From the IMG/VR virus record IMGVR_UViG_3300020711_000028, positions 1-30,138 of that record: a stretch of DNA of 30,138 bases; one strand, written 5' to 3'. The translations under genes and the position numbers were made by a program. The DNA comes from a virus. Under the pieces are notes generated by a model that saw only the letters and a list, made by a program, of their open reading frames with translations, did no database searches and had not been told where the DNA came from. Positions 5,762 to 25,464 of this stretch are shown here, piece by piece. How positions within the stretch are numbered: the stretch's first letter is position 1; each line of letters opens with the position of its first letter.

Positions 5762-6486
5762 TAATAAGTGCCTTCACTGAATGGGTCAACTTCACTAAAA
5801 TCGATAAATCCAGCAGAAGTATTAGCTAGATATTCATTATCAGTTCCAGGAAGAATAGTATTAAGATTATATTGTTCCATAACTAGATAATTATCGTCTT
5901 CATCAGTAAGCCAATTTCCTTGTTCATCCATAACGCTGTAATCAAGAATATTGGTGCTGAGATTTTGCTGCATAGAATCAATAGCTGGAATACCAGTGTT
6001 GAATATTTCATCTGAATATTCGAATAACTCGCAAGTCATTTTCCATGTATAGAGTTTGCCAAGCTGATAAAACATTTCGAATTTATCAACAAATTTAATT
6101 TGGAAACATTTATTGTTTAATGGGAAATATAAAAGGTCGCCTTCACGTGGTCTTATTAATTTAGTATAAACACCAACTTCTTCAGAGAAAACACGTTGGG
6201 CAATAGAAAACGTAACTTGATCGCGAATTTCAAGACCAAATTTTGACATAAAATTACCATCACCAGTAAACCCATTAATGTTTTCAATGTAGATAGGAAC
6301 TGCATATGTTTGGGTATATGATGACTGATCGTCAGCTGTATAAAGTTGATCGAAATTATTAATATTTCTTGGAATAAAGTACATCTGCTCGCCGTATATA
6401 GAAATTGCTTCTATGATAAGGCTTTCAAGAAGATTTTGTTCTTGGGAGCTATTGAAATTATTAAAGAAAAAATTTGTGCTTGGCAT
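5761..6486 (-). CDS. 14: Neck protein gp14
   Basis: This 241-aa protein is the gp14 neck (head completion) protein (T4: 256 aa), which with gp13 seals the DNA-filled head and receives the tail. Recognisable parts are the N-terminal NFFFNNFNSSQEQNLLESLIIEAISIYG, the MYFIPRN motif, KFGLEIRDQVTFSIAQRVF (about 102-120), RPREGDLLYFP and WKMTCELFEYSDE. It starts in a TAATG overlap with the stop of the homing endonuclease gene, so in this genome gp14 translation is coupled to the endonuclease rather than directly to gp13. The nearest late promoter is at 7252-7259, upstream of the endonuclease. Confidence 0.93.
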   Translation of the reverse strand: MPSTNFFFNNFNSSQEQNLLESLIIEAISIYGEQMYFIPRNINNFDQLYTADDQSSYTQTYAVPIYIENINGFTGDGNFMSKFGLEIRDQVTFSIAQRVFSEEVGVYTKLIRPREGDLLYFPLNNKCFQIKFVDKFEMFYQLGKLYTWKMTCELFEYSDEIFNTGIPAIDSMQQNLSTNILDYSVMDEQGNWLTDEDDNYLVMEQYNLNTILPGTDNEYLANTSAGFIDFSEVDPFSEGTY

Positions 6487-7223
6487 TATTTTAATTTACC
6501 TCTAACCCAGTCATCACCTGGAGAAATATCATTTCTTTTATTTATCACACCATTATTCCACCAAAATTTAGATTTCATTATATCAGATCTTTTTTGTTTA
6601 GAAGCCGTTAGACTATTGCTTATTTTTTCTGATATTTTTTGTTTATCTTCTTTGGTTCTATTTTCCCATTTTTGTTTTGTTTTATTGGCCATATTATTTT
6701 TATATTCTTTGCTGCCAAATTTAACAGGATTATATCTATCTTCTATAGGAAATTTTTCAGCCATTGTTTTTTTCATTGACTGGCGACGTTTTTCTCTTAC
6801 TTCAAGATCAGAACTTTTGTTATCTCTTTGTTCTAAACCAGCAAGATATTTTTCTTTAATATCTGGACGCTGCATTGCTTCTTTAGTTTTTTTAGAAATT
6901 TTTTCTTTTATTGTTAAAGAAGAATTTAAATCTGTAGTCCAATGTCCCCATTTGTGTTTACGTAAATTATAATATTTTTTACCGAGTTCTTCATTTTTTA
7001 TAAGAAAAAGAAATTTATATTCCTCTTCAAACATTTGAACTTTATCTAAAATATTACTTTTCAATATACGTCTTTTGAAATCATTAGGTCTACGTCTATA
7101 TGCATCTCTCATTCTATTTGAAGAACAGATATATCCATCATTAGCTGTTCCCCAATGACAACCTACATAATACATTTTACGTTTTTTGTCAAACCAAAGA
7201 TATACAAATCCATATTTTTTCAT
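6486..7223 (-). CDS. GIY-YIG homing endonuclease (Seg-like, free-standing)
   Basis: This 245-aa, very Lys/Arg-rich protein is a free-standing mobile endonuclease. The N-terminus has a GIY-YIG-type core: YGFVYLWFDKKRKMYYVGCHWG (residues 4-25, with GFVY and YYVG in the two signature positions), followed by RRPNDFKRRIL with the expected Arg and a downstream EEEYKFL with the metal-binding Glu. The middle (about 100-215) carries several NUMOD3-like DNA-binding repeats (KEKISKKTKEAM, EKRRQSMKKT, DKQKISEKISNSL). The C-terminus has the FWWNNG...SPGDDWVRG motif common in phage homing endonucleases. It separates gp13 from gp14, which are adjacent in T4, so it is an insertion. The ORF is intact and preceded by TAGGAG and a perfect late promoter. 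Confidence 0.88.
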   Translation of the reverse strand: MKKYGFVYLWFDKKRKMYYVGCHWGTANDGYICSSNRMRDAYRRRPNDFKRRILKSNILDKVQMFEEEYKFLFLIKNEELGKKYYNLRKHKWGHWTTDLNSSLTIKEKISKKTKEAMQRPDIKEKYLAGLEQRDNKSSDLEVREKRRQSMKKTMAEKFPIEDRYNPVKFGSKEYKNNMANKTKQKWENRTKEDKQKISEKISNSLTASKQKRSDIMKSKFWWNNGVINKRNDISPGDDWVRGKLK

Positions 7224-14003: not shown

Positions 14004-14222
14004 TTACTGTAATTTTCCTAAAAGATCTTTTAGCATTTGTTTAATTTCGGTCACGTCAGTTTTCAATTGTTCTTGTTCTTCAACAATTTTAACTAACTTT
14101 AATTTAAACTCACGTTCTTCTTTGTATTTATTAAGCAAAGAAGGATCTGCGTTTAATATTGCTTTACTATTAGCATCACGAATAAGATCTTTACGATCTG
14201 TTACCAAAAGATGTTTTCTCAT
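14004..14222 (-). CDS. Small coiled-coil protein of the tail module
   Basis: A 72-aa protein starting MRKHLLVTDRKDLIRDANSK. The second half is a strong amphipathic helix (KYKEEREFKLKLVKIVEEQEQLKT...), predicted to form a coiled coil. ATG at 14222 is chosen over one 11 codons upstream (14255) because it forms the ATGA four-base overlap with the preceding gene's stop, the arrangement used elsewhere in this operon. Similar short proteins occur next to large tail genes in cyanophage-type T4 relatives, as far as I recall; no function is known to me. Lying between the PIAQTF protein and the fibre, it may act as a connector or fibre chaperone; that is inference. Confidence 0.7.
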   Translation of the reverse strand: MRKHLLVTDRKDLIRDANSKAILNADPSLLNKYKEEREFKLKLVKIVEEQEQLKTDVTEIKQMLKDLLGKLQ

Positions 14223-16768
14223 ACTTGTAGGGCCAAAGCTCTCATATCTGTACAACGAGGAACAACAACTGGATTATTCGATGTTGGTACAATTTTAATT
14301 GCGAAAGTTAAAAACGTATCATAAACGATATCGTTATTGGATACGTAACGAACGATGCCAAGATTATTCATATAATCAAATGCACCAGATTGGTGTTCAA
14401 GTCCTGGAATAATACCGATATCAGCATACCAAGTAGAATTACCAACAACAGATGGTGGTGAATTTAGAGTAAGAACAGTGCTATTCGAATTTAAATTAAC
14501 GCCAACAATTTGACGAACATTAAATGTAGAAGTATTTGCACCACCAGTATTTGCATTATTCAAGTAAATATATTGACCATTTGAAAATGGTGCTACTGTA
14601 TATGGTGAATTAATTGTTATGTTAGCTGAAGCATTGCTGCAAGTAACAGAATTAGAATAGATAAGTTGACTTTGTGGCAATCCATAAACAAGTTCAACGA
14701 TATCGTTAGTATTAGTAGAACTACTTACTAATGCAGTCGATGTTGGCTGTTCAACAAGTCTTGAATAAATTTTAGTTATTAATGGATCAGGATCATGAGC
14801 GTTTAATAATTGACCATAAACCTGAAGGTTTGAACCAGCTGGACGATATGCGCCAATATAAACAACAAGATCTTCAGCATCTTGACCAGTTGCAAGAACA
14901 ACGCTTTTCGAAATATATCTTGATTGACCAATGAAAACATTACTAGAATATTTTTCATTAATTTCAATAGAAGAAGTTACTAAAGCATTAATAGAATTGT
15001 TGCCTGGAGCATATATCGTATTTCCAGAAACAAAATTTCCTGTAACATTACTTATACCGATATAATTTGGATCGATTGATAATACAGTTCCAGTAGCGGT
15101 ATTAGTTACACCGTTATTTTGTGTAACCGTCATACCTTTAATAAAATATCCACTAGTATTCGAACGTGTTAATATATAACCAGAAATATTATTTGTGTTA
15201 AATAAATTATTTTTAGTTAGTGTTATTGAATTACTAATTGTATCAATATACGGAGAAATTTTATTATTACCAGTTGTAATAGAAGCGATAATACTTGTTG
15301 TATTATTTCCAGAATATAATTGATATTCACTACTTCTGGATTTAATCGCTCTTTCTGTATCAGTAAATTCAGTTGCAACAAAATCAGTAATAGATGTCGC
15401 TGTAGTATCATACACATTAGCAGCTGTTATACCTTTAAGAGTCCAACTAATATTTGTTGATTGTGTATCATTTTCTGCAATTTTAGGAACGATAGCATCA
15501 TAGTTACTATCTGAGTTGAAACGAACAACTGCAGAACTTCCAGAACTTCCACCGATTATCATTTTCATATATGAATTACTAAAATTTACAGTACTATTTG
15601 CAGTAGAGCCATACAAATTAATTGGTATAGATGTTGTATAAACGCCTTGAGTACCACTATAAAAAGCATAAAGAGAATAATTATCACCTCTAATTTTACC
15701 AATTACAGCATTATTGTCACTAAATGCAACGTTGCCATCGACAGTAATCGCAGTCGAATTAATTGTATTAACTACAACACGTGGTTGTGTTATAGATCTA
15801 CCATTAGTAGCAATAAAAATAGTTTGATTCGCATAAAATATATTTGCTGTACCATTACTGGTATATGGCACAGTTATAGTTGTATTTGAGCTAGTTACAA
15901 CATTTTGAGAAACTACAGAAACAACACCATTGGCTGCTGAAGTTGCGCCTTTAACATTAAATGTAGTATTTGAGGTTGAATTTACCCAAGCTCCATTAGA
16001 CGAAGCAATTAATAATTTACTGCTATTAGCATACAACAAATAACCTGTAGCAACATTAGCAGAACCATTACTTTGATAAACAGTTTCACCAGAACTAAAT
16101 GCTCCAGTATTCGAAGATATAGTTAATGCAGCTTGATACCAAACGCCATTACTCATGAATATACGTTCATTTGGTATAAAATTACCAGTCATTGTACTTA
16201 CTAATAACTGTTCGCAATTATTGATATTATAAACAGCTGTTCCTGCACCATTACTTACTGAAAAATCAGCAGTGTAGAGAGTATATTTCATAGCTTCTGA
16301 TTGTACAGCTGTGAAATTAATATCATTTGTTGAAAGATATAAAGAACCATAAGCCGTTGCTGACTGATAAATTGGCGTACTTGTTGTTACGTCTGTACCA
16401 CCAATCGAACCAGTCCAAACAGTATAGTCTGGATTACCACCAACAGGAATAATTACTAATGCATATGAAGTTTGTGTTTGTAAAGTAACTGGTGAAGCAA
16501 AAGTAAATCTAGTAGGAACAGAAGCATCCGAAGATGATTGAATGATAGGAGTTCCATTACTATACGTATCAGTAACATGAAGGGTTACTGTAGCTTCTGG
16601 CAACATATACGGCGTAGGATCACCATTATTCGTTGTGCAAATTCTAAGCTCAACACCATAATATTGACTTACTGACTGAAAATAAATGTCAACAGATGTT
16701 AAAACAACACCTTCTACACCACCTACTGGTTCATTAATATAAAATGTTTGGGCAATTGGTTCAGTCAT
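14219..16768 (-). CDS. Large tail structural protein with N-terminal PIAQTF domain
   Basis: This 849-aa virion protein opens with MTEPIAQTFYINEPVGGVEGVVLTSVDIYFQSVS, a motif region found in large tail/baseplate proteins as [DE]P[LI]AQTF...G...TSVD[LI]YF. It continues with VELRI...NGDPTPYMLPEATVTL, SSDASVPTRFTF and TSYALVI (to about residue 120), a beta-sandwich-like head domain. Residues about 217-286 are one copy of the GAF..GE.VYQSNGSAN module also present twice in the gp8-like protein. The rest is Asn/Ser/Thr-rich beta repeats, ending with a globular segment (about 750-849) containing GLEHQSGAFDYMNNLGIVRYVSNNDIVYDTFLTFAIKIV. In relatives I recall the PIAQTF region follows a DUF4815 region in one polypeptide; here it is a separate gene 10 bases downstream. 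Confidence 0.7.
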   Translation of the reverse strand: MTEPIAQTFYINEPVGGVEGVVLTSVDIYFQSVSQYYGVELRICTTNNGDPTPYMLPEATVTLHVTDTYSNGTPIIQSSSDASVPTRFTFASPVTLQTQTSYALVIIPVGGNPDYTVWTGSIGGTDVTTSTPIYQSATAYGSLYLSTNDINFTAVQSEAMKYTLYTADFSVSNGAGTAVYNINNCEQLLVSTMTGNFIPNERIFMSNGVWYQAALTISSNTGAFSSGETVYQSNGSANVATGYLLYANSSKLLIASSNGAWVNSTSNTTFNVKGATSAANGVVSVVSQNVVTSSNTTITVPYTSNGTANIFYANQTIFIATNGRSITQPRVVVNTINSTAITVDGNVAFSDNNAVIGKIRGDNYSLYAFYSGTQGVYTTSIPINLYGSTANSTVNFSNSYMKMIIGGSSGSSAVVRFNSDSNYDAIVPKIAENDTQSTNISWTLKGITAANVYDTTATSITDFVATEFTDTERAIKSRSSEYQLYSGNNTTSIIASITTGNNKISPYIDTISNSITLTKNNLFNTNNISGYILTRSNTSGYFIKGMTVTQNNGVTNTATGTVLSIDPNYIGISNVTGNFVSGNTIYAPGNNSINALVTSSIEINEKYSSNVFIGQSRYISKSVVLATGQDAEDLVVYIGAYRPAGSNLQVYGQLLNAHDPDPLITKIYSRLVEQPTSTALVSSSTNTNDIVELVYGLPQSQLIYSNSVTCSNASANITINSPYTVAPFSNGQYIYLNNANTGGANTSTFNVRQIVGVNLNSNSTVLTLNSPPSVVGNSTWYADIGIIPGLEHQSGAFDYMNNLGIVRYVSNNDIVYDTFLTFAIKIVPTSNNPVVVPRCTDMRALALQV
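15911..16120 (-). repeat. Third copy of the YQSNGSAN module (in the PIAQTF protein)
   Basis: Residues 217-286 of the PIAQTF protein read ISSNTGAFSSGETVYQSNGS and on to NVKGATSAANGVVS, closely matching two segments of the gp8-like protein (24169-24366 and 22855-23052). The DNA shares the plus-strand core GAACCATTACTTTG with both, so homology is visible at nucleotide level. Confidence 0.8.
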
Positions 16769-16778
16769 TTATATCTCT

Positions 16779-17249
16779 TTATTTGTTGTGGGCCACATAT
16801 GATTCAGCAATATACGTTTTATCGCCAGTTACCGATAATCTATAAACTATGTAATCTTCTCTTGTTTCATATTTAACATTTTTTACAGGAACAAATTTAG
16901 TTTGTTTCCCATTATAATCATAATAAGCTATCATAGAACCTTCAGAAATAGTTACTAATTCTTTTCCTGCATTGTCCATCATAACATTATCATATTCATT
17001 TGGTTTTTGTGTGCGAAGCAATTCTGGATTAAACGCACCCCAACCCATATCTGTCAATAATGGATGTGTTTCAGAAACAAAGTAATCTACATTGTTAAAT
17101 GACACAAGTCTTGAATCTAAGTTAGGTGTTCTTACATTAGTAACTGTATTTATTCCAGTATAACCAAGAACCAAATCACCAACTTTTATATATTGAATTT
17201 GTTTAAACGAACCATCGGCCATAGCAATTAAAGCCCATGGAACATGGCA
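16779..17249 (-). other. Hint (hedgehog/intein) autoprocessing domain
   Basis: This 156-residue segment has the hallmark positions of Hint domains: an N-terminal Cys preceded by Gly-rich sequence, the block A pattern ALIAMADGSFKQIQYIKVGD, a block B-like SETHPLL, a long middle without an obvious endonuclease, and block F/G YRLSVTGDKTYIAESYVAHN. Inteins require Cys/Ser/Thr after HN; here it is Lys then stop, as in bacterial intein-like or hedgehog-like cleaving domains. Predicted chemistry: N-S acyl shift at Cys1531, releasing or cross-linking the upstream 1530-residue tail protein. Confidence 0.78.
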
Positions 17250-20200
17250 ATCACCACCGCCACCGCTGCCATCACCACCTTGGTTGCTTCCATCACCACC
17301 TGGTTTCGAATTTTGGCCATTATCAGTTTCACCATTTACGCCACTAGTATCTACAGAATTATCTTGAACATTTAATCCAGGAACATCTGAAAATCCTTGA
17401 TAGGCATTAATAGTTTGGCTAGTATACTGACTGTCACTTATACCAAGACTGTTGAAAGTTCCAAGACTATTAAGACCTGGAGTACTACTTCCGCCACCAA
17501 ATCCAGATAAATTAGGACTTACGTTATTATCTTGTGGTGTGGAATCTGGATTATCATCTGGTGGAGTAGTATCTACCCAATGGTTATTAGCACCGCCACC
17601 GCCACCGCCGCCACCATTTCCTGGAGAAACTGTTCCACCACCGCCGCCACCGCCGCCGCCAGTATTTTGTTGAGTAACAACATTTTGTGTTTGAGTTACT
17701 TGGCTAAGATTGAAAGTAGCTTGTTGTGCAGAAAGAATAGATGATCCTTTCGAGATAGAAATATTTGTACCGTAGAAAGTTCCAATAGCCTGAGTTGTAA
17801 TAGCATTAGCACCAGTTATAATATTTGGTACATCAACTAAACTAACATTTAAAGTAGTCGCAGTAAACGTATTTGCTGGTATGCTAAAATATGCGCGCAC
17901 AGTACCAGTAGAATCTGAATATAAAGGCGAACCATAAACAACGCTATTATTTGCTAGTTGGAATAAAACATCTGATGCTACAGTTGGTACTGTATCCGTA
18001 GGACCAACACCCTGACCAAATTGTTGATATAACGCAGAACCTACATTTTTACCAGAAACTGAATAAAAAGCTGTAGCTGGTAAAAGGAATGGATTGATAT
18101 CAACGTTGTTTACAAAACCATAAACACGTGTATTTGGTTTCAAACCAGTAGCAGTAAGTTTTGTTATAATTGGTTGCACGTATGGAAGAATAGAAACATC
18201 AGTTACAAAAGTTCCAAGATTATAATTCGTAGTACTTACGTTAGCTGCATAGCTCGTACCAGTTCTAGAATAAGTTGTAGTAACTGTTCCTGATTTATCG
18301 TCTTTATCACCAGAAGAAGGATTTGTGCTCATTTTTGTATTAGCAACATTTCCAACAGGTGCTTGTATAACCGCCCAATTGCTCCATGATGTTCCGAATG
18401 CAGAAGCTATATTTACCCAATTCGAAGAAAGATCAAGATTAGTAGTAACATCTGGAGAAGTTGTTAAATCAGGAGAAGTAGCACCTGATGGGTTAAATGT
18501 AATAGTACCATTCCAATTATAGATATTTCCTTCAATTGCATTTCTGTATTTTGAAGCATAAGGCTGTGAAAGATATGGGCTTTCATTGTAATTAAGCATT
18601 ACATATTTGCCAACTTTTACAGTATTAGAACTAGCATTAGCATTATAACTAATAGGTCTAGACATTTGAGCAAATGCTGGTCTCATATTTCCAGCACTAG
18701 AATCAATTGCAATGTTATATGTTGGATCTAAAGTATTACCAATGCTGTGATCAGAAAACGAATCTACAAGGATACCATTTTGGAATCGATTTTGGCCAGT
18801 AGTACCAGAACGAACAAGAAGATTGGTTGCTGATTGTTCAAGCAATGATAATGAAGTATAATATTGAAGGTTATTAATTTGCTTGGCGATACCACCAATA
18901 TCTTTCATAGTATAGCGTTTTTGCTGTGTAATTGTAGTAGTAACAGCATAATCATATCTTCCAGCAATTTTTGCTTCTGGTGTAGATAATGAAGGATATG
19001 GAGGAACATTAACAATACCAAGAGTCATTACACCATTTGGTTCTGGTGGTGCAACTGGATTAATCGATGGTTTTCCTTCGAATACTCTAAATTGTCCAGA
19101 AGTAGTAATTGCTGCAATATCAGTACGAGCATAATATGATTGAATATTTGCTTGATAATTGGTATCTGGCGTTGGAACAAATGAGCCATAAGATGGATCG
19201 ATATAATATGTTAACACAGCAGAAGGATTAACTGTTGCAACAGTTGTCCAGTTTGTTGAGTTTGCTGATGCATTAGCAGTATTATTTGCCCAAGGGCGGA
19301 AATCGATACTATCTCTCAAATCATATATTATTCCAGAAGTTGAATAATATTGCGGAATAAGTTGAGTTTGAATAGCATATGCATTTGAAGTATTAACGTC
19401 ATCGATAGGATATGAATTAGCATTAAAGAAACCAACACCCTGAGACTGGTTGTATGTAAATGCATTAAGATCAACGAGTATTCTAGAATTTGCATTTAAG
19501 CTATTTCCAATTGCAGAAATTTGTGCAAGACCATAATAATTATCTCTTTGACCATTATCGAATGAGAATGATCCAAGGCTGTTAGAAACAGTATTGCTGA
19601 ATGTACCATTATTAACGTAAATAGCATTAATGCTGAATACATCAGGAAGACCTAATGACCATGGTCCAGTCGAACCAGCTGGATGACTTGCGCAATTAAT
19701 AGCAACATAAACATGTGGATTTAATATTTTTTGTACAGGAACAGTAGCTTCTCTAAGAACATCATAGTATACATTCGCGCCCATAGTTCCAGTAAGATTT
19801 TCACCAAGATTAAACGTAGCAGATCCACTTGTTGAAATGATATTTCTAGTATTCGCACCAACCATTTTAGTAAAGTCAAGTGGAACGCCAGCTGGAAATA
19901 TTTTATAATGATTGCTATTTGTATTTGTAGTATTAAATGTATTAGAAACTGTCATCAATGTATTATTTGTGATAGCAGTAATTTGTCTAATTTGATTATT
20001 AACATCAATAAAATCACCAACTGAATAATCAGTAAGGAATGCAGTTGAACCATTCGCAACAACATTTGATTGTGAAGCTGTTACAGATACGTTACCATTT
20101 TTATTTGCAGTAGTGCCACTAGTAGTTGGGATAATAATAAATGATGCAGTTGCTATACCAGTTTCAGTACCTTCATTTTCGAATATTTCAGTTGCTGAAC

Positions 20201-21839
20201 CTTTTGGTGTTCCAAGAGAAACTGTCATAACACCTGAAGTATTAAATGTAGAAGTATTAGCACGACGATAAACATATTGTTGGTTAGTAAAGCCATTCGT
20301 AGAAAGAGCTTTTTGACCGAATGGGAAAATCATTGAATTAAAATTAGATTGCTGGATAACAGCTGTATTGCTTAATGATAATACAATATCTGCAACACCA
20401 TTAAGGCTGCTTGAATTATAATTGATAATACTTTTTACACTGCTGAAATTCCATCCTGGATACATTTGAACATTGAATAGATAAACAATATATTGTCCAG
20501 TTGGAGTGCCAGCAGTACCAGAATTAAATTCTACGCCTCTAATATACGCAGTTCCAATTTGTGTTGTTGCCGAATAACCAACACCAAGGAAAGAATCAGA
20601 AGAAATAGCATGTTTTGCTACACTGTGTAATTGAATTTGTTGTAATTTATTTGTTTGGAAATCGCCAACATATTCTTGAACGGTAACATAATAACCATAA
20701 TTAGTAGTAACAACTGCACCAGTTGAAGGGGCAAGATCAGTTGCTTTTCTTAATGATGTAATATTATTGTTTAAGAAATCTACATTATAACCTTCAACAT
20801 AACCTTCACCAGCTGAAGAAACTAAGCTGAGATAAGTTGTATTTGAATATGTTGAATTACTTGCTGTATTAGTTTCAACTCTTGGTTTAGTAGAAAGAAC
20901 AAATGGAGTAACAATAAAATTGCCATTTGTTTCATATGTACGGCGAGCCATTTCATCTTCGATAGAAGCGAACTGAGTATTATTTTTAATTGAAACTGGA
21001 TAACCTGCAACAAAATCACAAAGTGAGAAAAACGATGTGGTGTTTGAAATTGCATTTGTTTGACGAGTAACAAGAGTTGGGATAAGTTGGAGTCTGTGTG
21101 CGCCTGGAGCAAGATAATTCGGAGAACCCGAAGCATTATCATAAAGAGCAGAATTTGCTTCTGGAGTAATGATATTTTCGATTGCTTCAAAACCAACTGA
21201 AATATTGTCAGGAGCATTATTAAATGCATCGACTACAATAGTTTGCGGTAATACGTTGATAAAATAACCGTCTTTGAAAATTGTACCGTTTGTTGTTGTA
21301 AATGCGTAGCCTACGCCAGTAACGCCATTAGCAGAAGTAGCAGCTGTTACATTGCCGATCGCAACATTTGCTGTAGTTGCGATTACGAGCGTATCATTAG
21401 CATTAAATGTAGATTGTGGCGAACCATTTGAATATACTGCAGTGTTAAGATATTTAACATAAAGAGTATTAAGATATGGATCTTGTGATTGGAAACCTTG
21501 AACCGCATTAACGATAGATGCTTTAAGGCCATTATTGTTGTAAATAATATTACCAACGAAATTACTAATTGTAAATGCTGTGCCATTTGCATAGTTATCA
21601 TTAATTTTTACAAATTGATAATTGTTATCAAACGTAAAAGCGCAACCTTCAGTTACTGATCCATCTTTAATTAAATTTCTGCCAAATTTGCTAATTTGAT
21701 CTTGAAGGATCGACTGCATAGCATTGAGTTCTCTTGTCTGAACAGCAACACCTGGACGATACAAAACTTGATAATAATTTGAATTGGCGTCAAAATCGTC
21801 AAAATAAGGTGACTGAGATAGATCAATTTGTAGAGTCAT
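16779..21839 (-). CDS. DUF4815-type giant tail protein with C-terminal Hint (intein-like) domain
   Basis: A 1686-aa virion protein. The N-terminus (SPYFDDFDANSNYYQVLYRPGVAVQTRELNAMQSIL, then FGRNLIKDGS) matches the DUF4815 family of phage tail/baseplate proteins. A typical later segment, VTDVSILPYVQPIITKLTATGLKPNTRVYGFVN, lies in the last third of that region. After SVSKG-like SISKGSSILSAQQATF comes a linker (about 1393-1530) with two poly-Gly runs and Asp/Asn/Ser-rich spacers. Residues 1531-1686 are a Hint domain: Cys1531 begins CHVPWALIAMADGSFKQIQY, VGDLVLG follows, ETHPLL holds the block B histidine, and the end is YIVYRLSVTGDKTYIAESYVAHNK. Autocleavage is therefore possible, but no splicing partner follows HN except Lys and a stop. 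Ribosome-binding site GAGGAAAA precedes the ATG. Confidence 0.78.
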   Translation of the reverse strand: MTLQIDLSQSPYFDDFDANSNYYQVLYRPGVAVQTRELNAMQSILQDQISKFGRNLIKDGSVTEGCAFTFDNNYQFVKINDNYANGTAFTISNFVGNIIYNNNGLKASIVNAVQGFQSQDPYLNTLYVKYLNTAVYSNGSPQSTFNANDTLVIATTANVAIGNVTAATSANGVTGVGYAFTTTNGTIFKDGYFINVLPQTIVVDAFNNAPDNISVGFEAIENIITPEANSALYDNASGSPNYLAPGAHRLQLIPTLVTRQTNAISNTTSFFSLCDFVAGYPVSIKNNTQFASIEDEMARRTYETNGNFIVTPFVLSTKPRVETNTASNSTYSNTTYLSLVSSAGEGYVEGYNVDFLNNNITSLRKATDLAPSTGAVVTTNYGYYVTVQEYVGDFQTNKLQQIQLHSVAKHAISSDSFLGVGYSATTQIGTAYIRGVEFNSGTAGTPTGQYIVYLFNVQMYPGWNFSSVKSIINYNSSSLNGVADIVLSLSNTAVIQQSNFNSMIFPFGQKALSTNGFTNQQYVYRRANTSTFNTSGVMTVSLGTPKGSATEIFENEGTETGIATASFIIIPTTSGTTANKNGNVSVTASQSNVVANGSTAFLTDYSVGDFIDVNNQIRQITAITNNTLMTVSNTFNTTNTNSNHYKIFPAGVPLDFTKMVGANTRNIISTSGSATFNLGENLTGTMGANVYYDVLREATVPVQKILNPHVYVAINCASHPAGSTGPWSLGLPDVFSINAIYVNNGTFSNTVSNSLGSFSFDNGQRDNYYGLAQISAIGNSLNANSRILVDLNAFTYNQSQGVGFFNANSYPIDDVNTSNAYAIQTQLIPQYYSTSGIIYDLRDSIDFRPWANNTANASANSTNWTTVATVNPSAVLTYYIDPSYGSFVPTPDTNYQANIQSYYARTDIAAITTSGQFRVFEGKPSINPVAPPEPNGVMTLGIVNVPPYPSLSTPEAKIAGRYDYAVTTTITQQKRYTMKDIGGIAKQINNLQYYTSLSLLEQSATNLLVRSGTTGQNRFQNGILVDSFSDHSIGNTLDPTYNIAIDSSAGNMRPAFAQMSRPISYNANASSNTVKVGKYVMLNYNESPYLSQPYASKYRNAIEGNIYNWNGTITFNPSGATSPDLTTSPDVTTNLDLSSNWVNIASAFGTSWSNWAVIQAPVGNVANTKMSTNPSSGDKDDKSGTVTTTYSRTGTSYAANVSTTNYNLGTFVTDVSILPYVQPIITKLTATGLKPNTRVYGFVNNVDINPFLLPATAFYSVSGKNVGSALYQQFGQGVGPTDTVPTVASDVLFQLANNSVVYGSPLYSDSTGTVRAYFSIPANTFTATTLNVSLVDVPNIITGANAITTQAIGTFYGTNISISKGSSILSAQQATFNLSQVTQTQNVVTQQNTGGGGGGGGGTVSPGNGGGGGGGGANNHWVDTTPPDDNPDSTPQDNNVSPNLSGFGGGSSTPGLNSLGTFNSLGISDSQYTSQTINAYQGFSDVPGLNVQDNSVDTSGVNGETDNGQNSKPGGDGSNQGGDGSGGGGDCHVPWALIAMADGSFKQIQYIKVGDLVLGYTGINTVTNVRTPNLDSRLVSFNNVDYFVSETHPLLTDMGWGAFNPELLRTQKPNEYDNVMMDNAGKELVTISEGSMIAYYDYNGKQTKFVPVKNVKYETREDYIVYRLSVTGDKTYIAESYVAHNK
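17591..17660 (-). repeat. Poly-glycine-coding low-complexity tract in the Hint linker
   Basis: Two runs of eight to nine Gly codons flank TVSPGN and connect the tail protein body to the Asp/Asn/Ser-rich linker. On the plus strand it is a CCG/CCA triplet tract. A second Gly-rich patch (GGDGSNQGGDGSGGGGD) lies right before the Hint cysteine at 17250-17300. These are flexible linkers and likely slippage-prone. Confidence 0.85.
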
Positions 21840-21852
21840 ATTTTCCTCTGTA

Positions 21853-24800
21853 TTAGAACTGAATAACTATTTTAACAACTTCACTAGAAGTATTCGATAA
21901 AGTAACTGGTGCAAAATTTTCTAGATAGATAACATCACCAGAAAGTCTTACAAGATCAGGATAAACAATACTGTTATTAACTGTATTTAATCCTATTGCT
22001 CCAGAATTAGAACCAACCATATTAGCAGATAATAATCCACTTTGGAATTTATTTGGACCACTAATATTATTTAACACTAAAACAGTATAAACATTAGCTA
22101 TAGTTGCACCTGTATTTAGGAGATTTTTAAAGATATCTCCATTCGAAAATGATTTATTCTTTGCAGTAACTCTTAAATATGTGTTATTCGCGAATGTAAC
22201 AATACCTGTTCCATTTGAACTTGCATTTTGGCTTGAGATAATATCACCAACATTAAATGTTCCATTTGCTCCAGTATACACAATATCAACATCATTATTT
22301 GTTGAAATAATAGTACCGTAAGCATTTGTGCTTACTTGTGTTAATACTTCAAATTGTTGAAATGGTGCTGAGTTTGAAGTTAATGGCATTCTTAATGTTT
22401 GGTTAAAATATTGACCAAATATGTTTGTAACATTAATGGTGTTATTAGAACCGTAAAGAGAAACAACATTAGCCTGAGCGCCACTTACGTAATCAGTAAT
22501 ATAACTATTAGAAGTAAATGAACCTTCAACATTTGAAAGAGCAATTTGAGTATTAGTATTCAATGCGATAATTTGAGCAGTAGATAATGAAGTATTTTCT
22601 GTAACAATTTCAACATTTGAAAGCAAACTAAAATATACAGTATTTTGAGCAGCTACGTTAGCTTTAGAACCAGAATTTATGCCAATAATATTATCATTTG
22701 ATAGAACGCCATTAGCAAACATCATATTTGCTGCAAAAGTCCCTTGGGCATTATAAAGAACAAGAGTTCCTTGAGTAGAATTAGCAACATTAGCTGTGTA
22801 TGAAAGAACCATACCAACACCAACAGTTTGTTGATTTGACATTACAGTAGAAATAGTATTTACTACAGCATTCGAACCTGAAGTAACACCTTTAATTTGA
22901 TAAGTATTTGAAAAATATCCATTTGTAGGATTTACAACAATTGTAGTGCTATTGGCAGAAAAAACTGCACCAGTAGCAATATTAGCGGAACCATTACTTT
23001 GGTAAACTATTTCTTTAACAGTAAATGCGCCTGTATTAGAAGAAATGTTTAACCCATCCATTTCCATGTTACCTAATTGTAACACGCTTTCGTTATTAGA
23101 AAACGGCGAAGAAACATTAGTAAGTTGTAATTTTACTCTGCTAAAATTATTAAGGTTTACTGTAAGATCATTGTACAATGGATCTTCTAAAATACCTACT
23201 TTGCGGTATTTACCATAAACTGGGAAAATATATCCTTCAGTTGAGCCGTTAGCAATATTAACTGTTATACCAACGTATGATGCGCCAAGTTCAGAATATG
23301 TATTTGAACCATGTCCCGTTGCTGGTGAAATAGTTGGAGAAGCATTTGCTCCACTACCATAATTGGAATTGGCTGAAATTGCAATCGTAGCATTAGAATA
23401 GTTAGATCCTGGATTAATTACAACAATTTGCTGAATATTATTTGTAGAATTTGTTGCATTATTAACAACCGCATATGCAGCAGCATTTGTTCCATCACCA
23501 TTGATAGTTACTGTTGGTGAAATAATATACTGAGTAAGAGCATTTGGAATTGTGTAATATGAAATTAAATTAGCAGTTCCAAGAGAAGCGTATGTTGATG
23601 AATCTCTAGCAGTAAGAGTTTGACCAAGAACGAAAGTTCCAGTTGGAGCAGTAGTTGTAATATTAGGATAGCTAATTTGAGAAACGATAGATGCTTTTTG
23701 TAAAGATGATTCACCTCTTACAAAAAGTCCAGGAGTAATAGTGCCATTAACATTAGTAAGAATAAGTGTTGATGAATTAGCATATGATATAATAGCGTTA
23801 GCACCCTGATAGATATTATTAATGTCTACTTGATCGACCTTTTCGCCGATAATGAAATTTTGACCAACAGTAGCTACGTTATTATAAGTTAAATTGATAC
23901 CATTAAGATTAGTATTTGAAATATAAGCATTAGCAGAAGTTAATGTAGTTGATAAAATATCAGCTGCATAAGGCATCAAATAATATGAATTAGCAACAAG
24001 AGTATTTGAAAATGGAGTTGCTGTAGTTACAACTGTTGTATTAACAGCCGTAATTCTACGCATATTAGTATTTGCGTTTGAACCAACACGAATAAAGTTG
24101 TTTACTGAAAAAGTAGTATTCGCTGTACCAGTTGAAATATAAACGTAACTTAAACCGTTATTGCTTGTTGATACTGTATTAATAACAGCATTTGAACTTG
24201 AAGTAGAACCTTTAGCTTGATAAGAATTTGACCAAGAACCAGTCGAATTACCAACATAAATTGTAGAACTATTTGAGCTGAACACAACACCATTAGCAAC
24301 AGTAGCCGAACCATTACTTTGATAGATTGTTTCGCCGTTTGCAAATGCACCTGTATTTGAGGTAATATTTAATACTTGGAATGGCTGAACTGTAGCAGTG
24401 CCTGATTCTAATGTGCCTCCTTGTGTGACATCATAGATAGGCGTGTTAAGAGCGAATGTATTTGCGCCACTGTTACGGACAACTTGAAGGACTGTAGAAT
24501 TAGCAGTTATAATAGTGCCATTTGCGCCTGTGTCTGTTTGAATGATAGTATCACCAACTTGGAAAACACCCTGTTTATAATAATAAACAATGCTGTCAAT
24601 ATTTTGAGTAAGGATATTACCGACAGAAATAGAACCAGTTTGAGCTGATAAATTAAACACAGCATAAGTGTTAAATGCAGGTGTTACAGTAACTAATTTA
24701 TTAAGTCCATCATATTTTGTAATTTTGCTAATTTGACCAGCACCGAAACCTGCATTAAGATACATCGATGAACCAGTATAATAATCATTATATGGTGATG

Positions 24801-25464
24801 CGCCACTGTCGATACCGACTGTGTGATTGTTAATAGCTGATGTAAGATAACCAGAATAATATGACTGATAATTATTACCGCCAGCAGTAACACGAATAAC
24901 ATCGATGGTTCCTGGAACTGCATTCGAAGTTACGTTTGCATTTGGTGTTACTGGTATATATGTGTTGGATGTAAAATTAGTATTAGCATCTGTGCTAATA
25001 GAATACATGTATTTCCACACGTATCCGTCTGACGTATTAAATGTACCATATGGTGTTGTAAGAGATGGCTTTACTGTTGAATTAGCACCATTGTTATTGT
25101 CGATTACTTTGTAAACTTGATAATTATCGGTAACTACGAAAAAATATTTTGAATAAAGATTACCATCATTTTGATCATATCTATCAAAGTATGTATTGTT
25201 AGACCAATTATAACGAGGAATCATTTGAATGATATTATTGTTACCGATTCTCAAACCAAAAGTAAGGTCATCATAAATTACTGATTCGTGTTGAGAAACT
25301 GAAGCATTTGCTACAAGAACATTCGAATCGTCAATAGCACCATTGGCATCAGTCCATGGTGTTGGTTTGGCGAAATACATAAAGTATGCTTTTCGCGATG
25401 CAGTGATGTTCGTGATAAACGAATTAACAGCATCAAGATATTGGTGAATAGTTAGTACTGCCAT
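21853..25464 (-). CDS. 8: Baseplate wedge protein gp8, greatly enlarged
   Basis: This 1203-aa protein carries gp8 hallmarks (T4: 334 aa; a wedge component). The N-terminal region aligns by eye with T4 gp8: YFMYFAKPTPWTDAN (27-41) with ITFGRSEPW, IPRYNWSNNTYFDRYD (82-97) with IPRRDW, and DGYVWKYMYSISTD (146-159) plus NTYIPVTP with DGYVWEYLFEIPPD and EYIVVPW. A later KYRKVGILEDPLYND (751-765) looks like the end of the conserved gp8 core. The region between and after (about 270-640 and 780-1170) is filled with beta repeats of the type GxFxxGExVxQxxxGA, including two near-identical modules at 367-432 and 805-870. It lies after the gp7-position gene, as in T4. Confidence 0.82.
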   Translation of the reverse strand: MAVLTIHQYLDAVNSFITNITASRKAYFMYFAKPTPWTDANGAIDDSNVLVANASVSQHESVIYDDLTFGLRIGNNNIIQMIPRYNWSNNTYFDRYDQNDGNLYSKYFFVVTDNYQVYKVIDNNNGANSTVKPSLTTPYGTFNTSDGYVWKYMYSISTDANTNFTSNTYIPVTPNANVTSNAVPGTIDVIRVTAGGNNYQSYYSGYLTSAINNHTVGIDSGASPYNDYYTGSSMYLNAGFGAGQISKITKYDGLNKLVTVTPAFNTYAVFNLSAQTGSISVGNILTQNIDSIVYYYKQGVFQVGDTIIQTDTGANGTIITANSTVLQVVRNSGANTFALNTPIYDVTQGGTLESGTATVQPFQVLNITSNTGAFANGETIYQSNGSATVANGVVFSSNSSTIYVGNSTGSWSNSYQAKGSTSSSNAVINTVSTSNNGLSYVYISTGTANTTFSVNNFIRVGSNANTNMRRITAVNTTVVTTATPFSNTLVANSYYLMPYAADILSTTLTSANAYISNTNLNGINLTYNNVATVGQNFIIGEKVDQVDINNIYQGANAIISYANSSTLILTNVNGTITPGLFVRGESSLQKASIVSQISYPNITTTAPTGTFVLGQTLTARDSSTYASLGTANLISYYTIPNALTQYIISPTVTINGDGTNAAAYAVVNNATNSTNNIQQIVVINPGSNYSNATIAISANSNYGSGANASPTISPATGHGSNTYSELGASYVGITVNIANGSTEGYIFPVYGKYRKVGILEDPLYNDLTVNLNNFSRVKLQLTNVSSPFSNNESVLQLGNMEMDGLNISSNTGAFTVKEIVYQSNGSANIATGAVFSANSTTIVVNPTNGYFSNTYQIKGVTSGSNAVVNTISTVMSNQQTVGVGMVLSYTANVANSTQGTLVLYNAQGTFAANMMFANGVLSNDNIIGINSGSKANVAAQNTVYFSLLSNVEIVTENTSLSTAQIIALNTNTQIALSNVEGSFTSNSYITDYVSGAQANVVSLYGSNNTINVTNIFGQYFNQTLRMPLTSNSAPFQQFEVLTQVSTNAYGTIISTNNDVDIVYTGANGTFNVGDIISSQNASSNGTGIVTFANNTYLRVTAKNKSFSNGDIFKNLLNTGATIANVYTVLVLNNISGPNKFQSGLLSANMVGSNSGAIGLNTVNNSIVYPDLVRLSGDVIYLENFAPVTLSNTSSEVVKIVIQF
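22855..23052 (-). repeat. Second copy of the YQSNGSAN module (gp8)
   Basis: Residues 805-870 of the gp8-like protein (NISSNTGAFTVKEIVYQSNG... to SNAVVNTI) repeat residues 367-432 and match the PIAQTF protein copy at 15911-16120. The plus-strand core is GAACCATTACTTTGG. Confidence 0.82.
24169..24366 (-). repeat. First copy of the YQSNGSAN module (gp8)
   Basis: Residues 367-432 (NITSNTGAFANGETIYQSNG... to SNAVINTV) form a roughly 66-residue beta module found three times in the window: twice here in gp8 and once in the PIAQTF protein. Confidence 0.82.

Follow-up and report, generated by a model that had tools for sequence, protein, structure and literature searches.

What role could a Hint (intein/hedgehog-type) autoprocessing domain have at the very end of a phage tail protein, one residue before the stop codon? 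The question is raised by an uncultivated T4-like myophage known from an entire IMG/VR record of 30,138 bases, here called the window. Its tail, neck and packaging genes are all encoded on the minus strand, and its gene content includes tail tube, sheath, terminase, neck, gp15-like sheath stabiliser, fibre and baseplate wedge genes, with gp6-like and further baseplate wedge genes upstream of the gene in question. The window also carries a gene resembling a homing endonuclease amid the neck/connector genes (6486-7223, minus strand; phrog_314, 9.5e-10), as well as diverged repeats of ~90-200 bases with 72-75% identity (22856-24373 and 16011-16127; blastn of contig L001 against the window), which sit inside the baseplate gene 21853-25464 and also in the C-half ORF described below.

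A VrlC-like baseplate protein encoded by two ORFs

The preliminary description of this locus had assigned the 1686-aa product to a DUF4815-type tail protein. The family assignment held in a Pfam search (PF16075, 130.9 bits against a cut-off of 30, E = 6.4e-38), and the product is indeed a protein of a contractile tail, but VrlC-like baseplate component is the better name. Residues 1-1392 align to positions 1-1413 of the 2056-position phrog_358 profile, roughly its first two thirds (E = 4.4e-213), and the ORF that follows aligns to positions 1422-2003 (E = 1.1e-50), so that the two ORFs represent the halves of one family protein (Table 1). Membership in the VrlC-like family is supported by a PF16075 score over the cut-off, by matches to both phrog_358 halves and by the baseplate neighbourhood. 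This family has been described as probably taking the place of T4 gp7 in cyano- and pelagimyophage baseplates (PMC7029224). In cultured relatives, for example Rhizobium phage RHph_I1_18 and Sinorhizobium phage phiM7, both halves occur in one chain, separated by a Ser/Thr-rich linker immediately ahead of a DPI(A/S)Q motif.

Frameshifting or readthrough from the Hint ORF into the C-half ORF was ruled out, because the +1 frame stops right after KEI. An assembly error at the ORF end was likewise ruled out by contig L001, from another record, which is 99.99% identical over 9139 bases. Caulobacter phage Cr30 was rejected as an example of the same split: it too has two ORFs, but the break occurs upstream, inside the N-part.

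Table 1. Features of the split VrlC-like gene and its Hint domain (window coordinates; residue counts include many related copies and are not independent)
Feature	Position	Strand	Evidence
DUF4815/VrlC-like baseplate protein, N-half + linker + Hint, 1686 aa	16779..21839	-	PF16075 6.4e-38; phrog_358 4.4e-213
N-part, residues 1-1392	17664..21839	-	homology to N-half of phrog_358
Gly/Asn/Asp-rich linker, residues 1393-1530, GSGGGGD just before Cys1531	17250..17663	-	sequence
Hint domain, residues 1531-1686, 156 aa	16782..17249	-	Pfam, profile, AlphaFold, Foldseek
Cys1531 = Hint Cys1, predicted nucleophile of the N-S acyl shift	17247..17249	-	Cys in 60/60 VrlC-associated Hints
Block A-like motif ADGSFKQIQYIKVGD	17175..17219	-	alignment of homologues
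Block B SETHPLL; Ser for Thr at B:7; His62 = B:10	17055..17075	-	His in 60/60 homologues
Block G His154-Asn155, residues for C-terminal Asn cyclisation	16785..16790	-	37/37 in-frame, 17/21 split homologues
+1 residue Lys1686, sole residue between HN and stop	16782..16784	-	K/R in 49/56 HN-type VrlC Hints
10-nt gap, Hint stop to C-half ATG	16769..16778	-	+1 frame reads K E I stop
C-half of VrlC-like protein, separate ORF, 849 aa, MTEPIAQTFYI...	14219..16768	-	phrog_358 profile

The C-terminal segment has the sequence and predicted fold of a Hint domain

The elements on which a Hint domain had been proposed, namely a 156-aa end that begins with Cys1531, follows a Gly/Asp/Asn-rich linker and contains ADGSFKQIQYIKVGD, ETHPLL and a terminal YIAESYVAHNK, are all present in the 1686-aa ORF, which stops right after HNK. 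The Pfam families Hom_end_hint, Vint and Intein_splicing match this segment at ~0.002 (~18 bits), below their curated cut-offs, and its homologues in loci L011 and L085 exceed the curated cut-offs of Hom_end_hint, PT-HINT or Vint. When a 15-member Hint profile was compared with PDB sequences, BIL and intein structures were matched at 9e-12 to 1e-7, among them Tetrahymena BIL2 (9e-12), the C. thermocellum BIL (1.8e-9) and gp41-1 (9e-8). Matches to USP7 in a phmmer search of PDB were attributed to chance, as they were absent from the profile search.

The AlphaFold model of the window's Hint (pLDDT 96.8, pTM 0.90) again had Tetrahymena BIL2 as its top Foldseek match in PDB (1.5e-8); gp41-1 (1e-7), hedgehog 1at0 (7.9e-6) and RecA and DnaB inteins were also matched, and BFVD contains a near-identical fold annotated as 'Hint domain containing protein'. 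Judged by its sequence and modelled structure, the segment comprising residues 1531-1686 is a genuine Hint domain, and both the domain and the fold proposed for it were thus borne out.

Conservation of the active site and of the residue that follows it

The window's Hint carries Cys1, a block-B SETH conforming to (T/S)xxH, and His154-Asn155. These catalytic residues are invariant although identity to the window's Hint drops to 25-56%; the 4 of 21 split Hints in which His-Asn is missing belong to a distinct HN-less type, invariably found last in the ORF. These counts, like all those given here, include many related copies and are not independent. Among the 56 HN-type VrlC Hints, the residue after HN is Lys in 33, Arg in 16 and Cys in 7 (including copies in L110, L119, L180, L184 and L189), and in no case Ser or Thr. 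Lys also follows HN in 44/67 HN-type Hints of other phage proteins. The window copy shares with A-type BILs an HN end with no Cys, Ser or Thr at +1 (HNK stop), and it falls outside the Class 1 inteins in that the ORF ends at the +1 Lys and the chain has no C-extein. The earlier expectation that canonical splicing does not occur here is supported by the profile, the fold and the homologues.

The assisting residue of block F (F:4) is Asn or Asp in 56/58 VrlC Hints, the exceptions being the window copy (Arg) and that of L096 (Val). The same two copies, and no others, are those whose ORFs end at the +1 Lys. The altered F:4 may reflect a relaxed need for the C-terminal step, although two related cases by themselves prove nothing, and with Arg at this position the activity of the window copy could be altered.

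Hint domains recur at the same boundary, in frame or split

Scans of viral contigs yielded 78 loci with Hints between VrlC halves at the same boundary; they represent ~50 distinct sequences, some of them partial, and each metagenomic relative has 1-4 Hints. The preliminary description had correctly placed a Hint at the C-terminus, and had overlooked its position at the half-boundary, the adjacent C-half ORF, the in-frame relatives and the tandem copies. Hints lie in frame between the two halves in L011, L104, L113, L119, L125 (three Hints), L152, L205 and L214, with junctions (marked by a slash) such as ...LLVHN/KPIAQSFEV in L011, HNK/GSDPIAQSF in L104, HNK/DPVGETF in L152, HN/RDPLCQTF in L113 and HNC/GGDPIAQSF in L119. 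The longest series of this kind occurs in the 3022-aa VrlC protein of L214 (4514-13579, plus strand), where four tandem Hints separate the halves and each joint reads HNK/CF. In the split type, found in the window, L085, L096, L099, L100, L103, L174, L175, L196, L198 and L213, the ORF stops right after the Hint (window, L096) or else after a short tail or a further module, and the next ORF encodes the C-half. Relatives that lack a Hint mostly encode one chain, yet L087, L089 and L092 are split without one.

No Hint match inside a VrlC protein was found among 50,697 phage genome records with three Hint queries, the annotated matches in isolated phages being mostly helicases, terminases, recombination proteins and hypothetical proteins; in bacterial genomes, none of the 29 Hint loci found had VrlC halves.

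Several related arrangements were observed alongside. Tails beyond the Hint occur in the split VrlC N-parts of L196 (6335-10726, plus strand), L198, L201 and L202, that of L196 containing a Peptidase_S74 chaperone module (PF13884, 3.7e-8); such modules self-cleave in other phage fibres. In L237 (2-850) what follows the Hint resembles a CFI-box-CTERM end (NF041770, 1.7e-4, below cut-off) and is again a Cys-led module downstream of a Gly-rich stretch. A C-terminal helical domain starting with ICTxLYExG occurs after a Gly-rich linker or a Hint in L092 (3642-8417) and L213 (1555-6669), and no Pfam or NCBIfam family matched it over cut-off. The second, HN-less Hint-like type (L085:9410-9985, L133, L212, L015:10051-11046, L024:15588-16394) ends in ...GTTSI or ...GWxxDxDFxYxxW and terminates VrlC N-parts as well as small phage proteins rich in Cys and Asn. 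Finally, a Gly-rich fibre-like protein of 1838 aa (L215:1571-7084, plus strand) has six HNK Hints in a row, and in addition a seventh Hint-like domain without HN and a helical end module.

Selection on the Hint domains and changes between states

Close pairs of split Hints gave dN/dS values of ~0.06-0.19, and in-frame pairs were similar; all pairs were of relatives' Hints, there being no close non-identical relative that covers the window's own. The Hints of the relatives are thus under purifying selection. Such constraint is notable in split copies, because an earlier stop could have deleted these Hints.

A tree of the C-part implied at least 4 changes between fused and split states and at least 10 changes in Hint presence or absence. 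In this tree L152, with an in-frame Hint, is nearest to the split L175/L099/L103, and L195, L200 and L207, also with in-frame Hints, are nearest to the split L196/L213, which suggests that stop-restart replaced cleavage in those two split groups. The window's own clade includes the split Hint-less L087, L089 and L092, so that a Hint is not required for the split state. The association between Hint presence and gene splitting was not significant on the tree, with too few independent pairs.

Proposed mechanism and alternative explanations

Self-cleavage of the VrlC-like protein is probably the best-fitting reading: a BIL-like (A-type) Hint would process its own junction in a baseplate protein, to which, from sequence comparison and modelling, we assign a probability of roughly 0.55. 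A-type BILs have an HN end and no +1 nucleophile; cleavage is their main reaction, with aminolytic ligation to some extent (PMC4031507, PMC7664689). Applied to the window, this behaviour would have Cys1531, aided by Ser1589 and His1592, form a thioester with the acyl group of Asp1530, after which hydrolysis or a small thiol would detach the N-part, Gly-rich tail included, and leave the Hint free. Cyclisation of Asn1685 is possible as well, and would take off Lys1686 alone, since translation of the next ORF already provides the C-half as a protein of its own. In the in-frame relatives with Lys or Arg at +1, the same chemistry is expected to separate the N-half from the C-half, yielding the same two chains that the window phage makes by stop and restart, whereas a split copy would be expected to detach only itself from the N-half. 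Splicing would be possible in the few relatives with Cys at +1.

Among other explanations, the Hint might be catalytically silent in the window phage and act on the N-part as a folding module or as a structural cap at its C-terminus, a possibility that deserves some weight and that we nevertheless consider unlikely. It would accommodate the diversity of end modules at the same place in split proteins (S74 in L196, helical in L213, L092 and L212, CFI-box-like in L237), the altered F:4 of the window and L096, and the ability of an HN-less Hint-like fold to end split VrlC proteins (the third copy of L085, L133, L212); yet Cys1, the block-B His, His154 and Asn155 are all retained, and a pure cap would need neither Cys1 nor HN. 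A selfish origin, with the Hints as selfish or decayed mini-inteins tolerated in a flexible linker at no benefit to the phage, appears improbable. Their patchy distribution, their tandem copies (up to 4 in L214 or 6 in L215), their presence in unrelated virion proteins and the Cys at +1 in the five loci named above, as in real inteins, would be in line with such an origin. However, the 156-aa domain has no homing endonuclease, Lys or Arg at +1 would break the host protein rather than restore it, and low dN/dS is kept in split copies, where Hint loss would cost nothing.

Two further alternatives would have the domain ligate. Acting as a ligase rather than a protease, it could hand the N-part, through its Cys thioester, to the Lys amine of another virion protein or of the host surface, which we regard as quite doubtful. 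The nearest solved relative by both sequence and fold, Tetrahymena BIL2, is reported to form isopeptide bonds with the epsilon-amine of Lys and to dispense its N-flank to substrates (PMC8616854), Lys follows HN in 33/56 VrlC Hints, and the N-flank is a flexible Gly-rich tail; but Arg, incapable of such an acceptor role, replaces Lys in 16/56, which speaks against a universal Lys-acceptor scheme, BIL2 itself is only distantly similar (18% identity when aligned by Foldseek) and the acceptor is hypothetical. By analogy with BIL2, a conjugating module in which the Cys1531 thioester passes the Gly-rich end to a lysine (the conserved +1 Lys, a virion neighbour or the host surface), yielding an ATP-free isopeptide cross-link in the baseplate, is conceivable and has, in our estimate, little chance of being correct. 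Least probable, and very much so, is that the Hint joins the separately translated N-part and C-part in trans: Hint-less relatives do have both ORFs as one chain, and BILs can undergo aminolysis in the absence of a +1 side-chain nucleophile (PMC4031507), but the C-half has its own Met and no partner intein piece, and the split Hint-less L087 and L089 manage without ligation.

Comparison with known systems

Phage inteins are known mostly from replication and packaging enzymes. The literature we found described phage inteins in terminases and a reductase, and no published account of Hint domains in tail or baseplate proteins was found in a search that covered few subscription journals. Hints in phage proteins are already known; what is new is that BIL-like Hints of one family turn up repeatedly at a single boundary within a baseplate protein. 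If self-cleavage is true, it would add a self-processing step to contractile-tail assembly, with in-frame and split relatives as natural pairs predicting the same two chains, and would make available a collection of small Hint domains whose +1 chemistry is unusual, with an almost fixed basic residue where inteins need a nucleophile.

The VrlC/DUF4815 baseplate proteins of T4-like phages (HTVC008M, Cr30, phiM12, cyanophages) are homologous to the N-part and C-part over their full length; in cultured members no Hint was found and the halves usually form one chain, unlike in the window. Class 1 inteins such as phage gp41-1 have the fold and catalytic residues in common with the window's Hint, which in contrast lacks Cys, Ser or Thr at +1 and a C-extein, Cys+1 being found in a minority of relatives. 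A-type BIL domains, for example that of Clostridium thermocellum (2lwy), share with it the Hint fold, the N-terminal Cys, the block-B His, the C-terminal HN, the absence of Cys, Ser or Thr at +1 and a flexible, variable host region. Unlike A-type BILs, the VrlC Hints reside in a conserved baseplate protein, have a prevailing basic +1 residue and occur in up to four tandem copies in relatives, and the window ORF ends one residue past HN. The best match by both profile and fold, BIL2 of the Tetrahymena BUBL1 polyubiquitin-like locus (6y75, 6tmm), differs in its sequence (18% identity), its ubiquitin-like flanks and its demonstrated isopeptide chemistry, and resembles the window's Hint in being positioned between independently folded domains of a polyprotein.
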